Positions 2,964 through 18,081 of a stretch of 24,894 nucleotides of DNA are shown one piece after another. The stretch's first letter is position 1, and the number at the start of each line of letters is the position of its first letter. The DNA comes from a virus: the IMG/VR virus record IMGVR_UViG_3300005529_000095, positions 1 through 24,894 of that record; one strand, given 5' to 3'. The notes under the pieces were generated by a model. The model was not told the DNA's origin, made no database searches, and was given only the letters and a program-made list of their open reading frames with translations. The translations under genes and the position numbers were made by a program.

Positions 2964-4136
2964 ATGGATTTCTCTTTAACAACCTTGTTCGTTGCCCAAT
3001 CTGGAACCCTGGCTTCCAGCGGCTCTACTCAGAACCTGACTCCTGGTCAGCTTGGGGTATTCCTTCCGGATTATACCATAGCAACGACAGGTAATATAGC
3101 TTCTGCACAGTACATCTATGTTGCACAGGGCAGGATCGAGGTGATCCCTCCGGCTGGTGGTATTGCAGGTTTGTTGCCGCAAACCGGTAACCAACTGGGC
3201 AGCAAGCGTTCGGATAAGATCTCTGCTTCCAAGATCATTGATTGGTATAAGGTAACAGCTATTTCCAACGTACCCACCCAGATCCAATCCATTGCCAGCT
3301 GGAATATCCAGTGTGGTGAACAAATCACTTTCGCTTTCCGGCTGCACTCCAGCTATATCGATACTGGCTTCTTCAATGGCCTGACCAGATCGACGGTAGT
3401 ACAAGCACCTTGCTGCTCTTGCGGAGCCAACCCTTGTGCTACGGTTACCGGAGCGGCCCTGGATGCCTTTATTGATACTGCTGTTAATCAGCTGAATGCC
3501 GATCCTCAGCTCTCTGTATTCCTGACCTTCAGCCGGTTTGGCTCTTCTGCCACTGGTGGTAGCCCACAGCTGATCATCACCGAGAAACCACTGACGGTAT
3601 ACGGTAACCCTTGTGATTTCGAAGCTTATCCATGGGAATACGACAGACTGTGGTTCAGAGCTTTCGTGATCAATGGCCCGGTTACTACCCAGGACTTCAT
3701 TGTATCGGATGCTTGTAACATCGTGGCTACTTCCACGGTGGTACAGCGATCAGACTATGGTACTGGTTCATCGGCTGAGATTGCTCAACTGGAGAAGAAC
3801 CTCTACAGCTATCAAACCAGCGAGTTCAAGAGTACCTACAAGTACAACTCATGGAACCAAGCTTTCGTGAGCTATGTAACAGCTGGTACCTATTACGATA
3901 CGTACTACATCAAGTACTACCCACAGGATGAAAGACTAATGGACTGGAATCCAGGCGTTGTACAGGATTCTACGGTGATCGTAGCCTTTCCAACCGGTAC
4001 AGGTACTGCCTTCGAGACTTTGCTGACAGCTTACCTGGGAGCACCGAAGGATTGGAGCGGTACTAACCCAACAACTACGACTACAACGTCTACTACTTCG
4101 ACTTCTACGACTTCTACCACTACACTGATCCCATAA
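2964..4136 (+). CDS. Virion structural protein with C-terminal Thr/Ser tail
   Basis: A 390-residue protein with beta-rich, Gly/Ser/Thr-rich composition typical of virion shell, tube or decoration proteins. The N-terminus (MDFSLTTLFVAQSGTLASSG) leads into a beta-type domain. A Cys cluster (CCSCGANPC, about residues 149-157) sits in the middle. The last residues are an 18-residue Thr/Ser run followed by Leu-Ile-Pro and the stop. It is the last gene before a good intrinsic terminator, which fits an abundant product. Candidate roles are a head decoration protein, an auxiliary capsid protein or a tube protein; the sequence does not decide among them. The ATG at 2964 follows an A-rich leader with no Shine-Dalgarno motif. 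Confidence 0.6.
   Translation: MDFSLTTLFVAQSGTLASSGSTQNLTPGQLGVFLPDYTIATTGNIASAQYIYVAQGRIEVIPPAGGIAGLLPQTGNQLGSKRSDKISASKIIDWYKVTAISNVPTQIQSIASWNIQCGEQITFAFRLHSSYIDTGFFNGLTRSTVVQAPCCSCGANPCATVTGAALDAFIDTAVNQLNADPQLSVFLTFSRFGSSATGGSPQLIITEKPLTVYGNPCDFEAYPWEYDRLWFRAFVINGPVTTQDFIVSDACNIVATSTVVQRSDYGTGSSAEIAQLEKNLYSYQTSEFKSTYKYNSWNQAFVSYVTAGTYYDTYYIKYYPQDERLMDWNPGVVQDSTVIVAFPTGTGTAFETLLTAYLGAPKDWSGTNPTTTTTTSTTSTSTTSTTTLIP
4071..4124 (+). repeat. Thr/Ser tail 1 (18 residues)
   Basis: These 18 codons encode 14 Thr and 4 Ser, three residues from the end of the 390-residue protein. All four Thr codons are used (ACT 7, ACA 3, ACG 3, ACC 1), so the DNA is not a simple microsatellite. Confidence 0.9.
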
Positions 4137-4162
4137 AGACAGGTAGTATAACCTAACCCACG

Positions 4163-4194
4163 GGGGAGTGAGGGCAATCCTCCTCCCCTTTTTT
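4163..4194 (+). terminator. Rho-independent terminator after the Thr-tailed structural gene
   Basis: GGGGAG (4163-4168) pairs with CTCCCC (4183-4188). An inner AGG/CCT stem closes the loop GCAAT with a small internal bulge. Six T residues (4189-4194) follow at once. Only 12 nt separate the T-run from the next start codon, which leaves no room for a promoter, so downstream genes presumably depend on read-through or on an unseen upstream start. Confidence 0.85.
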
Positions 4195-4206
4195 AATTCA
4201 AAAACC

Positions 4207-4668
4207 ATGTCGCAACTAGCATTAGATTCAGTACAAGTAGCTATAGGTCAAATAGGCCAGCAGGAACATCCTATAGGGAGTAACTGGGGGGAACCTGTCA
4301 AAACTTACCTATCCTCCGTAGATATAGATTTTCCAGCCAGCTGGTGCATGGCCTTTGTATATTGGTGCTTTGATCATGCTGCGAGGGCCAGCTCCATTAG
4401 GAATCCACTGGTAAGAACAGCTGGTGTGCTGAATGCCTGGAACAAATCCAATCCTGGAAATCGTGTACTCACCAATCCAATTGCAGGAGATATCTTCATC
4501 ATGGATTTCGGAGGAGGCCATGGGCACACAGGAATTGTGGAGAAGGCTGATGATACCTATATCTATACCATAGAGGGGAATACTAATGACACAGGGAGCA
4601 GAGAGGGTTATGAAGTTTGTAGAAGGAGACGACTCAAGACAAGCATTAAAGGATACCTAAGATACTAA
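4207..4668 (+). CDS. CHAP-like amidase/endopeptidase (phage lysin)
   Basis: A 153-residue protein matching the small CHAP/NlpC-P60-type phage hydrolases that cleave peptidoglycan peptide or amide bonds. The nucleophile is probably Cys47 in PASWCMAFVYWCFD, the typical context of a helix-borne catalytic Cys. The partner His is probably His107 in GGGHGHTGIVE, and TIEGNTN (about 121-127) supplies the usual third polar residue. One domain fills the whole protein, with no wall-binding domain, signal peptide or membrane segment. The ATG at 4207 is chosen over a GTG at 4168 because the latter lies inside the terminator stem. No holin is visible nearby, so it may be either the lysis enzyme or a virion-carried wall-degrading enzyme. 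It ends 1 nt before the next ATG. Confidence 0.8.
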   Translation: MSQLALDSVQVAIGQIGQQEHPIGSNWGEPVKTYLSSVDIDFPASWCMAFVYWCFDHAARASSIRNPLVRTAGVLNAWNKSNPGNRVLTNPIAGDIFIMDFGGGHGHTGIVEKADDTYIYTIEGNTNDTGSREGYEVCRRRRLKTSIKGYLRY

Positions 4669-4669
4669 G

Positions 4670-5242
4670 ATGGCTTATCCAGAAACATCGCCCATATTAG
4701 ATTTTGTTGTAATAGATACACACAACCCGCTGACACTGGCAGTGGCGGATACCTCTTTCTATCCACAGGGATTTAATATTATCAATCCCACCATTGAAGT
4801 GTTTCCTCCCGGATTCCAGGAGGCTGTGCTGAACTACAGCCCCAACAGCATCACTGTCCTTAATAGCAACAGTCTGCGCATCACCTGCGTTCCTAGTGTC
4901 GATCTTCTTACCCCTCTCCCAGACGGCATTTGGAAAGTGAAACTGTCCATTTCTCCTCCTATTCAATGGAACGTGGAGCGCAGCTTCCTACGAACAGAAC
5001 AAATACAACAGAAGCTGGGACGAGCCTTCCTAAAGGTGGATCTGACACAGTGTAACATCAATGCCCAGCGGGAGAACATGCGGGTAATTGATGAGATCAG
5101 CTTCTATATCCAGGCCGCCATTGCTGCTGCTAATCAGTGCAATGATATCCTGGCCATGAATCTTTACCGAACTGCTAATACCATGCTGGACAACTTTGAA
5201 AGAGGTAGATGCAGCGGAACCACAAATACCCTTTGGTGCTAA
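4670..5242 (+). CDS. Conserved small phage structural protein, function unknown
   Basis: A 190-residue protein in two parts. Residues 1-100 look like a beta sandwich with short strands (FNIINPTIEVFPPGFQEAVL; SLRITCVPSVDLLTPLPDGI WKVKLSI). Residues about 105-180 are helical (TEQIQQKLGRAFLKVDL, then a helix of Ala/Asn/Asp character). The C-terminus has two Cys (RGRCSG and the last residue). The pattern is familiar from uncharacterised proteins next to lysin and fibre genes in large Bacteroidota phages, but I cannot name a family. It lies between the lysin gene and a Thr-tailed gene, spaced by one and one nucleotides, so it is clearly cotranscribed with them. A fibre-attachment or baseplate-like role is only a guess from position. 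Confidence 0.6.
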   Translation: MAYPETSPILDFVVIDTHNPLTLAVADTSFYPQGFNIINPTIEVFPPGFQEAVLNYSPNSITVLNSNSLRITCVPSVDLLTPLPDGIWKVKLSISPPIQWNVERSFLRTEQIQQKLGRAFLKVDLTQCNINAQRENMRVIDEISFYIQAAIAAANQCNDILAMNLYRTANTMLDNFERGRCSGTTNTLWC

Positions 5243-5243
5243 C

Positions 5244-5663
5244 ATGATCCCTTTCTTACTGCGACAATGTACAGACTGTGACAACCTGGAAGACGCCCTG
5301 TGCCGGATTGAGGGGGCATTGGCGCAATACGGGAAAAATGCCTGGCACAACCTCAGTTACCTGACCCAAAAGCCGGTACCGAACGTACAAGTAAAAAGAA
5401 TAATATATTACCAGCAGATACTCAATACATTAAAAACTAGTCCAAGTTCCTATTGTCCACCGTATACCATTGCCACAATCGCCTCCCGGGCACAAGCAAT
5501 TGCAGGTAGCACCACTCCCATTGTACGGAGAAACAAACTACCTGTTTATACCACAACAACTACCACTTCGACCAGTACCACGACGACGACTTCTACGAGT
5601 ACTACCACGACAACGAGTACCAGTCACACTACCAGTACCACCACCACTACAACGACAACCTAA
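5244..5663 (+). CDS. Small helical protein with long C-terminal Thr/Ser tail
   Basis: A 139-residue protein. The ATG at 5244 is chosen because it lies one base after the upstream stop; an in-frame ATG at 5196 would overlap the upstream gene by 47 nt. Residues 1-60 are helical with Cys (LLRQCTDCDNLEDALCRIEG), and residues 60-100 form a second helical part. Residues 103-139 are a run of 29 Thr, 7 Ser and one His ending at the stop codon. The folded part is only about 100 residues, so more than a quarter of the protein is tail. The stop TAA shares a base with the ATG of the next gene (TAATG), so translation of the collar fibre is probably coupled. The function is unknown; a small virion-associated or fibre-associated protein is likely. 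Confidence 0.65.
   Translation: MIPFLLRQCTDCDNLEDALCRIEGALAQYGKNAWHNLSYLTQKPVPNVQVKRIIYYQQILNTLKTSPSSYCPPYTIATIASRAQAIAGSTTPIVRRNKLPVYTTTTTTSTSTTTTTSTSTTTTTSTSHTTSTTTTTTTT
5550..5660 (+). repeat. Thr/Ser tail 2 (37 residues, period of 8)
   Basis: This is the longest of the four tails. Ser occurs at tail positions 7, 9, 15, 17, 23, 25 and 29, so a Ser-Thr-Ser element recurs every 8 residues three times. The codons of the three 8-residue units differ throughout (ACC, ACA, ACG and ACT mixed), so the period exists in the protein rather than in the DNA. Confidence 0.9.
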
Positions 5664-6724
5664 TGGCTTGTAAAGATTGTTTACAGAACTGCCCCGAAAT
5701 AATATCTGACCAGTGTGTCCAATACACGGGTCCAGCCTTGGCTGCTCCCTTTAATGTGTGTACAGGGGATCAATTGCCTGTCCTGGAGGCAGCCTTGGTA
5801 TCTATTATCCAAAGCCTCCTCAATGGTACAGGTCCCACTCCACAGGTGACCACCACCGAATGCACCTGGTTCCAGCAGCTGTTTGGAATTCTGCCTATCA
5901 ACCTCAATAATGTGCTGCAGGTATTGATCAATGGAGAGTGCAGCCTGTACACCATGATCACCGATCTAACCAACGAGTTCAATAGTAGCCAAAATGGAGC
6001 GGTGATTGATACCGGTTGTTTGACAGGATTACCGGCGACCCCTACCACAGCCCAGATCATCCAGGCCATCATCACCTTACTCTGCGGTGTCAATACCACT
6101 GTTAATTCATTTCCAACTACTTATGTAAGAGTAGCAGATCTGACCACCCTGGTTACACCCATCGTGAATACCATCATCAGTGGCGGTAGCACTACTTCCC
6201 AACAGTACGCCAAGATGGTCCCTTATGTAGCCTACGAATACTACGGACCCCTCTCCAACTTTGATGGCTCCGGGAAAGGGATTGCTACCTTGGGCTTCGA
6301 TAAAGTGTACCTCTGCAATGGCAGCAATGGCACCCCTGATAAACGAGGTAGGGTGGCTGTGGGAGCTATCCGGGATGTACCTGGCGGGTCTCTGGACCCA
6401 GCGGTTGATCCGGCGGTCAATCCCAACAATCCCAACTGGGGATTAAAGGATAAGGCAGGTGAAACTTTCCACACCCTCACCGTGCCGGAAATGCCCAGCC
6501 ACACCCACACAGTCACGGACCCACAGCACAGCCACACCTTTGCTTCCGGGGTACTGACCAATGGTACAGGGCCTTTCAGTGGGGTAGGTGGTGGAGGTTT
6601 GTATTTCTCTACTCAGACTTCTCCAGCTTCGACGGGAATCAGTATTAATGCGGCAGGTGGTAGCCAACCTCACAATAATATCCAGCCTTCCATCGCTGCC
6701 TATTATATTATGTATTTGCCCTAA
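5663..6724 (+). CDS. Tail fibre with C-terminal tail-collar domain
   Basis: A 353-residue receptor-binding-type fibre. Residues about 190-353 match the phage tail-collar family: DKVYLCNGSNGTPDKRGRVA (214-232), then AGETFHTLTVPEMPSHTHTV, then the closing QPHNNIQPSIAAYYIMYLP. His280, His282, His289 and His291 are placed like the metal-binding histidines of T4 short-tail-fibre-type tips, where a metal staples a trimer. Residues 1-150 carry the Cys-bracketed repeat shared with the next gene, including CVQYTGPAL (18-26) and a Cys119-to-Cys141 unit. It is the only gene of the Cys-repeat pair without a Thr tail; the collar tip takes that place. It overlaps the upstream stop by one base. The role is probably host-surface recognition. 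Confidence 0.8.
   Translation: MACKDCLQNCPEIISDQCVQYTGPALAAPFNVCTGDQLPVLEAALVSIIQSLLNGTGPTPQVTTTECTWFQQLFGILPINLNNVLQVLINGECSLYTMITDLTNEFNSSQNGAVIDTGCLTGLPATPTTAQIIQAIITLLCGVNTTVNSFPTTYVRVADLTTLVTPIVNTIISGGSTTSQQYAKMVPYVAYEYYGPLSNFDGSGKGIATLGFDKVYLCNGSNGTPDKRGRVAVGAIRDVPGGSLDPAVDPAVNPNNPNWGLKDKAGETFHTLTVPEMPSHTHTVTDPQHSHTFASGVLTNGTGPFSGVGGGGLYFSTQTSPASTGISINAAGGSQPHNNIQPSIAAYYIMYLP
5714..6085 (+). repeat. Cys-bracketed helical repeats in the collar fibre
   Basis: Three degenerate units cover residues 18-53, 67-93 and 119-141. Each starts with Cys, has a short polar turn, then an amphipathic stretch rich in Ile and Leu. The units at 67-93 and 119-141 also end with Cys. They match the repeat of the following gene. 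Confidence 0.6.
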
Positions 6725-6747
6725 AAATTGATAATCAACTAATTATA

Positions 6748-8178
6748 ATGGCTTGCGTCAATTGCATACAAACCACTGCCAGCATAACTGGTTTCTCCCC
6801 TACTAATTGTGTGAGTCAACCTGGATGTGCAGTCAATGCTTCCTGTATAACCTATACAGGACCGGCACTCTCTTGTTCAGGAATAGCCACTTATGATACG
6901 CTGGACATTATCCTGCAGAAGATAGATCCCCTGCTTTGTGCCAGCTCAGGGGATTATTCTACGTACAACACCTACTGCCTGGCTCCTATCAGCACACAGA
7001 AGCAGTTCGTAGAGAGTATCTCTAATTACGTTTGTACCCTCAATACCAACTTCACTACTTTCACCGGGACTACTTTTCCTGCCTACCAGACAAGTGTAAC
7101 GGCAGCTATTACAGCGGTCAATACACCTGCTATCACCTGCGCAGTCGCAGGAGTAACACCTTCGGATACCATTCCTACTATTCTAAGCAAGTACTGCACG
7201 ACCCTGACCAATATCTCTACCAACCTGGATATATCAGGGGCGAACTGGGGAAGTTGTTACGTGGTATCGCCTACCCCCTCTACCCTCACCCAAGGCTTCA
7301 ATGCGCTCATTGCCCAGATTTGCCTGCTGAAATCGCAGGTAGCTGGTGCAGCTGTCCTTCCTACTTTCAACAATACAGCGAACTGTCTGGCAGGAGGAGC
7401 AAGCGATTCCCTGGTAACTACCATTGGGAGTATCATCACTAGGCTCTGTAACACAGGTACCCTCAATACCAGCACCCTCACCTGGGGATGTGTCACACAA
7501 CCATCCGGCAACCAGAACCTACAGGATACCCTTCAGAATATCCTCACGCAGCTTACCACTGTGAGCCAGGCAGAACCGATGTCCTGGTCCAACGACTTTA
7601 CAGTTACCAACGTAGACAACGGTAATCTGTGTGCCGGGAAGCACATTGCCCTGGCCACACCTTCCACCCAGGACCGGTTTGTCGCTGCTACCCCCAGTGA
7701 TACTTCTCCTGCTACCCTCCAGGGCAAAGTAACTGCGGGTACAAATATCACCCTGGACTTCGTGACTACTCCTGGACAGATGATCATCAATTCTTCTGGA
7801 GGAGCCGGAACCGGCGATCATAAAGTATTGGCCGATGGAGCTGATAGTACAGCCAATTATCTTTCCCTGAAGCTATCAGGTAGCACTTCATCTGGTGTCA
7901 GTGTACAACCACTCCTGGATACGACAAACCCAAGCCATGTAGTGAACCTGACAGTGAACGTCGATTTGGTTACCCTGTTCACAGCTCTGTTGAACGCGGT
8001 ACCGAACAATGCAGGACTACAGAGCCTCTTCTGCACTACTGTTGGGAACTGCCCCTCTCCCTGCTCTGCCCCCACTAGCGTTAGTGTGGTGTACAATGCC
8101 CAGACCACGACAACCACAACGACAACCAGTACTACAAGCACTACCAGCACAACAACTACCACGACCACTACTCCATAA
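6748..8178 (+). CDS. Cys-rich repeat fibre protein with Thr/Ser tail
   Basis: A 476-residue protein with 20 Cys. The N-terminus (MACVNC; CITYTGPAL at 33-41) is paralogous to that of the upstream collar fibre, so both probably attach to the same virion site. Residues 33-272 hold about six Cys-bracketed helical repeats. Residues 275-450 are beta-rich and Thr/Ser/Gly-rich, like a fibre shaft or head. The last 24 residues are 20 Thr and 3 Ser in the pattern 8T-S-2T-S-2T-S-8T, followed by Pro. There is no enzyme motif or collar domain. It is separated from the collar gene by 23 nt of A/T-rich sequence and from the next gene by 14 nt. A trimeric tail-fibre or adhesin role is the best reading; the receptor is unknown. 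Confidence 0.65.
   Translation: MACVNCIQTTASITGFSPTNCVSQPGCAVNASCITYTGPALSCSGIATYDTLDIILQKIDPLLCASSGDYSTYNTYCLAPISTQKQFVESISNYVCTLNTNFTTFTGTTFPAYQTSVTAAITAVNTPAITCAVAGVTPSDTIPTILSKYCTTLTNISTNLDISGANWGSCYVVSPTPSTLTQGFNALIAQICLLKSQVAGAAVLPTFNNTANCLAGGASDSLVTTIGSIITRLCNTGTLNTSTLTWGCVTQPSGNQNLQDTLQNILTQLTTVSQAEPMSWSNDFTVTNVDNGNLCAGKHIALATPSTQDRFVAATPSDTSPATLQGKVTAGTNITLDFVTTPGQMIINSSGGAGTGDHKVLADGADSTANYLSLKLSGSTSSGVSVQPLLDTTNPSHVVNLTVNVDLVTLFTALLNAVPNNAGLQSLFCTTVGNCPSPCSAPTSVSVVYNAQTTTTTTTTSTTSTTSTTTTTTTTP
6844..7563 (+). repeat. Six degenerate Cys-bracketed repeats
   Basis: Units start at Cys33, Cys77, Cys131, Cys170, Cys213 and Cys248 of the 476-residue protein. Most close with a second Cys at 19-22 residues (77/96, 131/150, 170/192, 213/234). 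Between the Cys lie a turn with Ser, Asp or Pro and a helix of the type TIPTILSKYC or SLVTTIGSIITRLC. Confidence 0.6.
8104..8172 (+). repeat. Thr/Ser tail 3 (23 residues)
   Basis: These 23 codons encode 20 Thr and 3 Ser, symmetric as 8T-S-2T-S-2T-S-8T, before a final Pro. ACC, ACA, ACG and ACT are interspersed. Confidence 0.9.
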
Positions 8179-8192
8179 TAAAACCATAGCAT

Positions 8193-9269
8193 ATGTCAAC
8201 CAGCATTGCAACCATATCATGGACGCCTCCCCCTGGGTCTACCGGAACACTGGTTGAGTACAAACTAGCTTCCAGTAGCACCTGGATTACGCCCACTACT
8301 CCGAACAATCCTACCCTTGCAGCTACCTATCCCCTGACCATTACCGACAACCAAGTCTACAATGTCAGGCTTACTAATTATGGCGCTAGGTGTTTGCCAC
8401 GTAGCAGGACTTTCAATATCATTAGTGTAGTAAATAATTGCTGCCCTCCTGGATATAGCCTATCTCCGGATGGCACCTATTGTATGCAAGTGAATACGAC
8501 AGCTGCTACCCCGCCCAGTTCGCAGGAAATAACGGTATCTTCGACCAACGCAGCCTACACCAACTTTGGGGCTTACATCTATGATCCGGGATATGCCAGC
8601 AATGGCACGGGTACTTCCAACCAAATCCCTACCAGCAATTCGTTCTGGTGGAACCCATCACTCACTACCACCCAAGGCCCCATGAACCGGTCTGGGCTGT
8701 GGGCCACTACTGCCACCAGTAATCAGGATGTAGGCTTCTCAGTGTGTATTACCGTCCCTGATACCTCGGTATACTATGTAGGTATCGGCGTAGACAACTA
8801 CGGCATCCTACAGATCGATGGAAATGTGATCGTCACCCAAGATCCAACCGCGCTGGCTGCTCAATACAACCCTACCTTTCCTGGAATCGGTCCTGCAGTC
8901 ACCTTCAAGATCTGGCACATCTACCCTGTTACCCTCACCCAAGGAACACACGTACTGAATATCATTGGGCACAACGTAAGTGGAGCAGCAGGGCTTGGTG
9001 TGGAGGTGTATAACCTCACCATACCGCAACTCCAAAGCGCCACTTCCTATGCAGACATGGGAGCAGGGCTCATCTTCTCCAGCAAGGATTTCATCGGACA
9101 GAATGTACAGATTGGAAGTGGTGGTACTGGCTACACCTGTCCTCCGAACTATTCCCTGGTTTTCTGCACGGACAGCCCGTACTGTACCCAAACCCTAACG
9201 ACCAATATCATCCCTTGTGTCATCACCACTACAACTACTAGTACTACGACTACGACCACAACTACTTAA
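8193..9269 (+). CDS. Fibre protein: FN3-like N-terminus, ligand-binding-like middle, Thr tail
   Basis: A 358-residue protein. Residues 1-80 look like one fibronectin-III-type sandwich (ATISWTPPPGSTGTLVEYKL, then VYNVRLTNYG). A Cys element (CCPPGYSLSPDGTYC, about 87-101) follows. Residues about 115-310 form a beta-rich domain with QGPMNRSGLW and YYVGIGVDNYGILQIDGN, resembling PA14- or galactose-binding-like adhesion domains. A second, related Cys element (YTCPPNYSLVFCTDSPYC) precedes the final 14-residue Thr/Ser tail. The two Cys elements flank the middle domain like matching brackets. The next gene, 2 nt downstream, is a single FN3-like domain similar to residues 1-80. A host-surface or glycan-binding role is inferred from the fold type. 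No catalytic motif is visible. Confidence 0.65.
   Translation: MSTSIATISWTPPPGSTGTLVEYKLASSSTWITPTTPNNPTLAATYPLTITDNQVYNVRLTNYGARCLPRSRTFNIISVVNNCCPPGYSLSPDGTYCMQVNTTAATPPSSQEITVSSTNAAYTNFGAYIYDPGYASNGTGTSNQIPTSNSFWWNPSLTTTQGPMNRSGLWATTATSNQDVGFSVCITVPDTSVYYVGIGVDNYGILQIDGNVIVTQDPTALAAQYNPTFPGIGPAVTFKIWHIYPVTLTQGTHVLNIIGHNVSGAAGLGVEVYNLTIPQLQSATSYADMGAGLIFSSKDFIGQNVQIGSGGTGYTCPPNYSLVFCTDSPYCTQTLTTNIIPCVITTTTTSTTTTTTTT
9225..9266 (+). repeat. Thr/Ser tail 4 (14 residues)
   Basis: These 14 codons encode 13 Thr and 1 Ser and run directly into the stop codon of the 358-residue protein. ACT, ACA, ACG and ACC are all used. Confidence 0.9.
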
Positions 9270-9271
9270 CT

Positions 9272-9514
9272 ATGGCTCAACTAGTTATAAATTATAGCAT
9301 ACCTTTTGGGGCCAGCATACGGATCGGCTACCGCGTACAGAACAGCTCTACGCCCTTCACTTATGTTAACCCCTTCCCAGACTATACCCAATCCCCTTAT
9401 ACCATAGGTGGCCTTGCCCAGAACAACTACGAGGTGGAGTTAACTACCATCTGTCCCAATTGTTCAGGAGGAGTATTCGCAGATCCGGTCGTGTACCCTG
9501 CACAAACACAGTAA
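9272..9514 (+). CDS. Small FN3-like single-domain protein
   Basis: An 80-residue protein that reads as one fibronectin-III-like beta sandwich: strands around LVINYSIP, IRIGYRVQNS, YTIGGLAQNNYEVELTT, then a Cys pair in CPNCSGG. It resembles the first 80 residues of the upstream protein, with the shared end pattern N-x-Y-x-V-x-L-T, so the two probably arose by duplication. It has no Thr tail, signal peptide or membrane segment. It starts 2 nt after the upstream stop and is the last gene before a terminator, closing the fibre cassette. A small accessory or decoration protein that binds surface glycans or caps a fibre is possible, but the sequence does not show which. Confidence 0.6.
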   Translation: MAQLVINYSIPFGASIRIGYRVQNSSTPFTYVNPFPDYTQSPYTIGGLAQNNYEVELTTICPNCSGGVFADPVVYPAQTQ

Positions 9515-16100: not shown

Positions 16101-18081
16101 TCAGATCTATTCCTATGATACAGTAGACACAGGGGCGAGCTATCTCATTGATTTACAAGACCCTTTTAACGTACATCGCCGGTTCCTGGATGTCTTCGGC
16201 GGGGATACTTTCATCAACAAGTTTGCTTTCAAACGGAAGCTGCCCTTCTTCATCGATAACCGGGTAGGCGCTCCTGATGATTCCGATGTGTTCTACGACG
16301 AATTGGGAAACATTGCCAATCCTACCTATTGGTTCAGTACAGATATCACCCGGGGAGATGGTGGGGCTTTCAGCATTGGTTCTCTGTTCGGTGTTAAGGT
16401 GAATAATTTCGATTGCAAGGAAGGGAAATTCTTCTACGATGCGGGTAGGTTCTATCTGTTTGCCTACGGCATCCCCTACTTCTATGTGGAAAGCACGGTG
16501 AATGTGGACTACCGGCAAGCCTATAATAATAAGGAAGGAGACTACTATCCTCATGTATCCGGCGATGTCCCTGATCCCTGGCTCCAGGAGCAGAACGTAT
16601 CCATCCAATACGACAATACCTATACATACAACAAGACTTTCTCTAAGCAGAATGCCGAGAACAACTTCACCACGCTGCCCATCGACTTTGTGCCCGGCGA
16701 AGACTGCTTGCAAAACTTCCCCAATAAAGCTGTCTATTCCGACCGCCAGGAAGATGTGGTGAATTATAAGAAGAACAACTGGCTCATCTACCGACCGGCC
16801 AGCCAGTTCGACTTCCCCCTGACCTATGGTAAGCTGACTTCCTTAGAAGGGATCGAAAACAGGGCAGTGCTGGCCCGGTTTGAAAGTAAGTCCATGATAT
16901 ATAATGCCTTACTTACAATAAATACTTCTAATCCACAGGCCGCTTACATAGGAAATAGCACGCTTTTTGCGGGGTCTCCTCCGATTGATTTCACTGAGAC
17001 CGACCTGGGGTATTCAGGTTCCCAACATAAGTTCTTCCTGAAAACAGAGTACGGCAATATCTCCATCGATGCCAAACGGGGAAACGTCTTTCTTATTCAC
17101 GGAAATGGCATCAAAGATATTGGAGGGGAGAACGTCAGACGGTTCATGGAGACCAACCTCCCTTTTCAGATGAAACTGGCGTTCCCTGCTTATAACATCG
17201 ATAACCACTTCAAAGGAGTAGGACTCCATGGAGTATACGACGAGAAGTATGAGAGGTTGATAATCACTAAGTTAGATTACAAACCCCTGAATCCCAATAT
17301 TCAGTATGACAGCAGTATTGATAGGTTCTCTCTTAATGGGAATACCATCCAGTTAGGGGACCCTACCTACTTCTGTAACGTATCTTGGACCCTCTCCTAC
17401 TCTTTCCTCACCCAAAGCTGGATTGCTTTCCATACCTACTTGCCCAATTATTACGTGGGAGCCATCAGTAAGTTCTATTCCGGTAGAAGGGATCTGGGAT
17501 CGGTGTGGACACATAACACCATTGAGAACGAGTACAATAGCTTCTACGGAACCATTGAGCCCTACATATTAGAATATGTCATCAACTATAAACTCCAGGA
17601 TGAGATCATTACCAACATTAAGGACTACACCAAGGTAGCAAGTATCATAGGAAGATCCTCCTATGTGCAGACAGATAATGTCTTCTTCAACAAGGCCATC
17701 ATCTACAATGACCAGCAGAACTCTGGGATATTAAACCTGGTTCACAAGGTACCCAACAACCTCCAGTTCTATCTGCAGTATCCTAAGTACAATCCAGACA
17801 GTAAGGACATCCTCTTTGTCAAATCAGATAATTTCTACAATTACAACGGGTTCTGGGACATTGTAAACGACTATACCCAGCCCGTCTGGCAGGACAGTTG
17901 TGTGAACAAAAGTCTGGGAAAACAATTGATAACCAGCAACTTGAACTACAACAAGCGCTCTTTCCAGAAGTACCAGATCCGGGCCAAAGATTGTAAGGTA
18001 CGGCATATCCTGGATAACCGGAGTGACAGCCGCCTGACCAGCCGATTTGTGGCATTTGAAAACACTATATCCTACAAATAA
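13138..18081 (+). CDS. Giant tail stabilisation / muzzle-type protein
   Basis: A 1647-residue, beta-rich protein, matching in order and motifs the tail-stabilisation protein of crAss-like phages (distantly likened to P22 gp10). That protein forms the tail end around the exit channel. Recognisable segments: QNAYLGMNLDAITSQVKPGQ near the start, WTDGNNPRRWIDL at 132-144, VDYRQAYNNKEGDYYP from about 1123, then DNTYTYNKTFSKQNAENNF, GIENRAVLARFESKSM, and HKFFLKTEYGNISIDAKRGN from about 1296. The central 500-950 region is Thr/Asn/Tyr-rich and less conserved-looking. There is no membrane segment or catalytic motif. It shares TAATG with the next gene. Tail shaft or needle alternatives are less likely given the segment order. 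Confidence 0.75.
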   Translation: MGELIPQNAYLGMNLDAITSQVKPGQLTYALNAQVEGYDGNSIIYQNEQRNDFCFQLPAGYDVIGTHQIIEIDTVIYFLANATTGQSEIGKVVNDSCTYQTIINANCLNFNINFPILKAVHKITNCSVEVYWTDGNNPRRWIDLNNLPFTQVIEATNTDACNVTTTNVVDCNKLSVQPNFAIPQISYVTVADEGNTVAGTYQFAVQYCNSLGDPYTGFYSITDPLPIHDPLAVTPDFNYLTGKSIQLQVDNLDTTGIWQYFNVAVIKTINNISSVDLVATYQIESSSQKVLYTGQSKTGITLTIDDIFEKFNIFDTAGDLTVVQDILVWDDLTATERISYQQIANKIHLQWVSYILPPALNGFKDELNSANYRGYMRDEVYAFDMVVVLKNGYQSDRFPIPGRPPLDSDLTLVNNGDTQFGTTLCTEPQSKPRWQVYNTASITGVDPQFEPDNICYQGPYQFGEFAYWESTETYPCNEAVWGDLAGKPIRHHKFPDSTTTHHYDQAGNVYPLGVRVDMMDVYNLFRTSGLTSEQLERIAEIKIVRGNRANAKSVVAKGMLYNVGVYSNKDATYYYPNYPYNDLRVDPFIQKQSTTSLGVLLINRVEDAENEAGKETDLYNEQIAGGQLANDNDVLTANYQGTFSNNGSLKDLRLYFAGQKIFDSGAMNVNSSTSWQIVSTITRIDATSVKCSTVITLSGATSTTSTQKVTLINLVLGNPNTLRLTGQASPPAFPATFVPPESGDIVARTETISYRAAQLQEDNTLNLNGFNTPQSQQRFTFHSPDTSFYQPFLGTILKLESVEYGDAKAHFVQVQGHAKYKFPSLNSYLTALVTGIVVGFASGTYGLSNNVFNGAAAFTAFQTMKDIIYQLIPRKNFAYQFNSVGNYTNSAIIPDDNGNKIRQIDIGTYLTSVIQGVGDTNPVNNWERESSVYVRTTSTVPYPDTYPGVPQDRSRFTGSQVGCSDNFFNVPISSYYGSIKILYPDQYGQIYSYDTVDTGASYLIDLQDPFNVHRRFLDVFGGDTFINKFAFKRKLPFFIDNRVGAPDDSDVFYDELGNIANPTYWFSTDITRGDGGAFSIGSLFGVKVNNFDCKEGKFFYDAGRFYLFAYGIPYFYVESTVNVDYRQAYNNKEGDYYPHVSGDVPDPWLQEQNVSIQYDNTYTYNKTFSKQNAENNFTTLPIDFVPGEDCLQNFPNKAVYSDRQEDVVNYKKNNWLIYRPASQFDFPLTYGKLTSLEGIENRAVLARFESKSMIYNALLTINTSNPQAAYIGNSTLFAGSPPIDFTETDLGYSGSQHKFFLKTEYGNISIDAKRGNVFLIHGNGIKDIGGENVRRFMETNLPFQMKLAFPAYNIDNHFKGVGLHGVYDEKYERLIITKLDYKPLNPNIQYDSSIDRFSLNGNTIQLGDPTYFCNVSWTLSYSFLTQSWIAFHTYLPNYYVGAISKFYSGRRDLGSVWTHNTIENEYNSFYGTIEPYILEYVINYKLQDEIITNIKDYTKVASIIGRSSYVQTDNVFFNKAIIYNDQQNSGILNLVHKVPNNLQFYLQYPKYNPDSKDILFVKSDNFYNYNGFWDIVNDYTQPVWQDSCVNKSLGKQLITSNLNYNKRSFQKYQIRAKDCKVRHILDNRSDSRLTSRFVAFENTISYK

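Follow-up and report, generated by a model that had tools for sequence, protein, structure and literature searches.

Four proteins of an uncultured crAss-like phage end in runs of threonine and serine, and these tails fall into two classes: an arm on the protein encoded by gene 2964–4136, which belongs to the capsid, and a widespread linker that closes the products of the other three genes. We consider it somewhat probable that the tails represent one protein-level element in two uses, as a linker and as a C-terminal arm, and we infer that this element forms an exposed, extended arm or stalk. The window, that is, the whole stretch of DNA analysed here, is the 24,894-base IMG/VR record IMGVR_UViG_3300005529_000095, and it was compared with its 80 nearest relatives (L003–L082), yielding a set of 81 loci. 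An earlier note on this DNA had proposed one shared tag for all four proteins, a view that is too simple because the capsid tail and the linker-type tails differ in their evolution.

Four terminal Thr/Ser runs and their surroundings

All four runs are encoded on the plus strand and were read from the translated open reading frames, with zero to three residues separating the end of the run from the stop codon. The first (4071–4124, 18 residues) closes gene 2964–4136 and is followed by LIP and the stop. The second (5550–5660), directly before the stop of gene 5244–5663 (g7), comprises 37 residues, 36 of them Thr or Ser and one, residue 26 (5625–5627), a His; its reading also draws on relatives with a run-domain-run arrangement. 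The third (8104–8172, 23 residues, the last eight being Thr) ends gene 6748–8178 (g9) ahead of a single Pro and the stop, and the fourth (9225–9266, 14 residues, TTTTTSTTTTTTTT, with eight terminal Thr) lies directly at the stop of gene 8193–9269 (g10). The lengths, coordinates and stop distances reported earlier were right, the single His being the lone correction. Each run draws on all four Thr codons in mixed order, and both the TCN and the AGY codons of Ser are in use across the set. Moreover, identical neighbouring codons in the Thr/Ser runs were slightly rarer than in shuffled runs (476 compared to 511 ± 17), which together with the codon mixture rules out a recent triplet-repeat expansion, as the earlier note had argued. 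The terminal placement is not due to chance. Among the 124 unique Thr/Ser runs of at least nine residues in the 81 loci, 34 ended at most four residues from the stop, as compared to 2.7 expected under uniform placement, and the excess persisted when the capsid auxiliary protein was left aside (25 of 108 versus 2.5 expected).

The window opens with the 3′ portion of a major head protein gene (MCP; PHROG match to phrog_11589), followed by two genes and then by gene 2964–4136, and the same order is seen in relatives. The MCP gene (1–1129) is cut by the window start, the ORF from position 50 encoding 359 residues as compared to 514 in close relatives. When annotated phages were searched by tblastn, the MCP returned a sole match at 25% identity, the cyanobacterial Leptolyngbya phage Lbo-JY46 (L388, PP438436.1), which is the nearest annotated phage by capsid protein and has zero Thr/Ser runs of at least eight residues within the 50 kb examined; the same search with the protein encoded at 17665–18240 of L054 gave no match. 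Between the capsid auxiliary gene and gene 4670–5242, the window and L003 carry a CHAP-domain endolysin-like gene (4207–4668 in the window); in other relatives this place is empty or filled by different small genes. Gene 5663–6724, annotated at the PHROG/Pfam level as a tail-type (collar-type) protein, adjoins the g10 region. In L368, the collar-type gene beside the tail genes is flanked by two ORFs (411–728 and 1814–2332), both with HNH-endonuclease-like ends. Directly after g10 follows an 80-residue protein (9272–9514, plus strand) that has no Thr/Ser run and is conserved beside g10 in relatives.

The C-terminal arm of the capsid auxiliary protein

The 390-residue product of gene 2964–4136 (plus strand) had no PHROG or Pfam match, its profile had no sequence match in the PDB, and tblastn with a capsid auxiliary protein against annotated phages returned no match, so that its identity came from the fold. 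An AlphaFold2 model calculated from a 59-sequence alignment (mean pLDDT 76) had a sole strong Foldseek match, 7qof_a (E 3.1e-10), the gp36 protein of phi-crAss001. The VIA alignment to this chain gave a Z of 17.2 and an rmsd of 4.5 over 294 aligned residues, placing residues 1–364 of the model on residues 4–333 of the chain. The two-domain architecture of the gp36 family, PH-like and FliD-like, is present over the whole length of the model, with residues 103–265 matching FliD/FliC structures, and further matches in BFVD include structural proteins from the Cellulophaga phages phi14:2 and phi17:2. Judged by its predicted structure, the protein is a capsid auxiliary protein (AUX) of the gp36 family. 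Its gene is also located similarly, a few genes downstream of the MCP, with two intervening genes here and three in phi-crAss001. In the latter phage, gp36 sits on the outer capsid with nine copies per asymmetric unit (PMC10172136). By analogy, each asymmetric unit would here carry nine copies of the window protein, or about 540 per virion, and the protein probably ranks among the most abundant ones on the outside of the crAss-like capsid.

Whereas the likeness to gp36 (PDB 7QOF) covers the fold of essentially the whole protein, the two proteins differ at their C-termini. The phi-crAss001 protein ends at residue 333, equivalent to residue 364 here, without a Thr/Ser run, and the further 22-residue arm of the window protein (PTTTTTTSTTSTSTTSTTTLIP, 4068–4133, plus strand), which contains the run at 4071–4124, thus extends the protein past the known fold. 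Homologues of the capsid protein with a Thr/Ser-rich C-terminus were found in all 81 loci, the exceptions in detail being L072, where a frameshift inside the tail leaves it readable in a second frame, and three loci with a shortened tail (L026, L056 and L062). The tail measures 21 to 22 residues from the first TTT/S block in 74 of the 81 loci, it ends with LIP in 62 and with LVP in six, and it is also carried by three deeper relatives whose bodies are 42–45% identical. Overall, the arm is conserved at body identities as low as 42–48%. No homologue was seen with a domain behind the arm. According to these data, the capsid arm is a related, fixed-length form of the element (22 residues, usually with an LIP end) and a permanent C-terminal arm in this clade.

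The pattern of substitutions shows purifying selection on the capsid tail. In the window clade, pN/pS was 0.08 for the tail versus 0.20 for the body; in the distant clade, the corresponding values were 0.32 and 0.27 (0.29 and 0.27 for LIP-type tails), so that constraint on the distant-clade tail is similar to that on the folded part of the protein, with synonymous sites left free. In the monomeric AlphaFold2 model, the arm has a pLDDT below 50, and this part of the model can equally well be read as disordered. Among the functions considered in the earlier note, the fixed tail length and the conserved hydrophobic C-terminus favour that of a docking strand for the product of gene 2964–4136.

Linker-type runs and their counted Thr block

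The small protein g7 (5244–5663, plus strand), with homologues in 65 of the 81 loci, consists of a conserved N-terminal domain of about 100 residues and the terminal run; neither g7 nor g9 had a PHROG or Pfam match. The N-terminal domain is kept in its relatives, and behind the run follows one of several unrelated domains or nothing. Close relatives have further domains in this place, and the majority of the distant homologues stop after about 88 residues with neither run nor further domain. The 37-residue run in the window looks like two runs that became fused after loss of an intervening domain. L012 and L015, which are more than 99% identical across the capsid region, differ at this gene: 1,030 bases of L012, encoding g7 domains, correspond to about 20 in L015, one edge of the difference lies inside a Thr/Ser run, and the g7 protein of L015 ends in a terminal run plus IPL.

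The protein g9 (6748–8178, plus strand) bears an N-terminal motif, YTGPALxCxGI, of which YTGPAL also occurs in gene 5663–6724, and its Thr/Ser run is terminal in each of the nine homologues of the alignment; it is probably a virion protein. For g10 (8193–9269, plus strand), for which the comparison comprises seven sequences, the model (mean pLDDT 67) predicts, with modest confidence, an adhesin-like protein composed of a fibronectin-III domain (Z 8.7 over residues 1–78), a PA14-like sugar-binding fold (PA14 domains by Foldseek, probability 1.00, E ~1e-3), a Cys-containing piece and the terminal run. The PA14 sequence model did not match the window protein, and one of the seven members touches PF07691 at E 0.04. 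The homologues vary around the tail: L369 keeps it behind a different and shorter body between the fibronectin-III domain and the tail (195 compared to 358 residues), L008 has an extra domain behind the run, and L391 ends just before it. The modelled g10, together with the neighbouring tail-type protein 5663–6724, would fit exposed adhesins, and the place and folds of g7, g9 and g10 suggest that all three are part of the virion.

In relatives, including the g7 and g10 homologues, the same Thr/Ser runs join domains, and in the four window proteins and all capsid-protein homologues seen, the run does not stand between folded domains. Because the runs are often internal linkers in relatives, the element is not generally terminal, contrary to what the earlier note had implied. 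In the aligned homologues, the capsid tail was kept, steady in length and under purifying selection, and the g7 and g10 tails were absent or followed by domains in several cases. The idea of a spacer at a domain-exchange point is supported for g7 and g10, given the different or missing domains beyond the run and the L012/L015 edge inside it. The element can stand at the N-terminus as well, as collar-type homologues of gene 5663–6724 in L009 (14313–15473), L018 and L023 begin with a Thr/Ser run (MPEDTTTTTTT...).

The linker-type element has a recurrent build, namely a variable Ser/Thr core, one or two Ser, and seven or eight Thr, often followed by x-x-Pro. Exactly seven trailing Thr were present in 45 of 121 runs, as compared to 4.7 ± 2.1 when Thr and Ser were shuffled within the runs, and eight in 20 (3.4 in shuffles), while five and six were depleted (two runs each, versus 8.1 and 6.0). 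A second class of runs, the capsid tails among them, has three or four trailing Thr. In runs of at least 12 residues, Ser was over-represented at the eighth and ninth places counted back from the end (62% and 81%), and the third residue after internal runs was by far most commonly Pro (50 cases). Between the orthologous linkers of L011 and L012, the core changed from 32 to 20 and from 30 to 26 residues, and the final SSTTTTTTT was unchanged. At the DNA level, third bases within the Thr block matched at random (0.34 versus 0.35 expected), Ser at the fixed places was spelled AGY or TCN alike, and sharing a contig did not make two blocks more similar to each other. The random third bases and the free spelling of Ser indicate that the protein, not the DNA, is conserved, and the random codons in the block, the low pN/pS of the capsid tail and the set Thr count bear out the earlier suggestion that amino-acid composition is kept at the protein level.

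The element is used across environmental phages, inside proteins as well as in C-terminal tails. Among the matches listed for other viral contigs, five, six, seven and eight trailing Thr occurred 18, 16, 32 and nine times, so that the mode is again seven, with a peak weaker than in this clade. These figures, which are samples and not counts, come from patterns requiring Ser-Ser and at least five Thr; a scan for exactly seven Thr was left out of the length test, and in a further scan six Thr were the minimum. A strict version of the motif, Ser(AGY)-Thr7-[A/V]-x-Pro, was found in more than 120 cases in viral contigs and in 56 stretches of about 85,000 genomes of bacteria and archaea, many of the latter being actinobacterial and some lying in short frames, where a chance origin is probable.

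Linkers of Thr and Ser are a known kind. Both residues are enriched in low-complexity regions of bacterial proteins related to polysaccharides (PMC6821194), and the Ser/Thr linkers of carbohydrate-related bacterial proteins, like other low-complexity linkers, resemble the runs described here in composition and in their place between domains. They differ in that here the Thr block is counted (seven or eight), Ser stands just before it, and the element is also used at protein ends. The open papers searched contained no description of such Thr/Ser tails in crAss-like phages, nor of the counted Thr block, its use at protein ends or its fixed place on a crAss-like capsid protein. Low-complexity Thr/Ser segments are commonly dismissed as floppy linkers, but in this case length is counted despite free codon drift, and the element recurs in unrelated phage proteins and as a fixed arm on a crAss-like capsid protein. 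The sequence Ser, seven Thr, x-x-Pro offers a searchable signature for exposed phage proteins and makes a question testable, namely what counts to seven.

Possible functions of the tails

Docking or self-association fits the data better than a passive spacer. The exact length, the Ser-free block, the independence of context and the hydrophobic C-terminus of the capsid arm together favour a pairing structural unit over both a brush and a passive spacer. The fixed Thr block would pair, as such a unit, either with its own kind or with the strand of a partner, and the Ser/Thr core would act as spacer; this pairing step is a guess, plausible rather than probable. The simplest partner that is always present would be another copy of the block itself. 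On the capsid, the arms may converge at local three-fold positions of the PH domain or dock on a neighbour through LIP, and in adhesin-type proteins the element would hold domains away from the particle. As the element is independent of its context, domains beyond it can come and go, and their gain or loss may leave a terminal tail. In its most specific form, Thr7-x-x-Pro would be a self-associating unit, a counted beta-stalk clamp serving environmental phages as an interchangeable holder of adhesin domains, and a related form would raise about 180 three-stranded capsid stalks in this clade; we regard this full version as unlikely.

Alternatively, the tails may be acceptors of O-linked sugars, which a glycosyltransferase of the phage would attach in the host cytoplasm, creating a glycan brush on capsid and adhesins. 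The dense packing of Thr and Ser and the PA14-like fold on g10 are consistent with this possibility. Yeast flocculins of the Flo1/Flo5 type carry a PA14 domain on a Thr/Ser stalk, and g10 resembles them in combining a PA14-like sugar-binding fold with a Thr/Ser-rich segment; unlike them, it is a cytoplasmically synthesised phage protein that is not known to be glycosylated, and its tail is short and terminal. Glycosylated virions have reportedly been described for mycobacteriophages (Freeman et al. 2023), and phage-encoded glycosyltransferases would likewise be a possible source of virion sugars in this case. A GT2 enzyme (PF00535) was present in 10 of 12 large records with Thr/Ser tails and in none of four cultured crAss-like genomes without them, a comparison that is small and confounded by descent. 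Moreover, glycosyltransferase genes are common in large phages, they lay tens of kb from the tail genes in the records compared, and one more tailed record, of 84 kb, had no GT2. A brush would also not need exactly seven Thr, a Ser-free block, a fixed 22-residue arm or a hydrophobic LIP end, and we consider this explanation rather unlikely. As to the enzymes themselves, most large relatives (L371–L384, the records behind L004, L022, L029, L044, L047, L048, L061, L074, L075 and L079) encode GT2-type glycosyltransferases, and one GT2 family (WDDDD, SWFYMWGGRGYHMSG) is well conserved; tblastn with this family against annotated phages gave no match.

A more modest proposal is that the runs are flexible low-complexity linkers, the terminal ones being stubs that remained inactive after loss of a distal domain. 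The internal linkers of relatives, the resemblance of the g7 run to two fused runs, and the roughly 1-kb difference in g7 domains between L012 and L015, with its edge inside the run and the terminal run plus IPL in L015, are what it would predict. It accounts poorly, however, for a capsid arm that is kept in nearly all homologues and never seen with a domain behind it, for a g9 run that is terminal in nine of nine homologues, for a g10 tail that persists while the body is replaced, and for a Thr block of set length, making it distinctly unlikely as a general explanation. Finally, a constraint at the DNA level, with (ACN)n tracts serving as recombination joints for module swaps and Thr as a by-product, would suit the L012/L015 breakpoint and the swaps adjoining runs, but is highly improbable given that similarity between blocks is no higher within a contig than between contigs, and conservation of the Thr block as DNA is rejected by the random third bases and the interchange of AGY and TCN at fixed Ser places.
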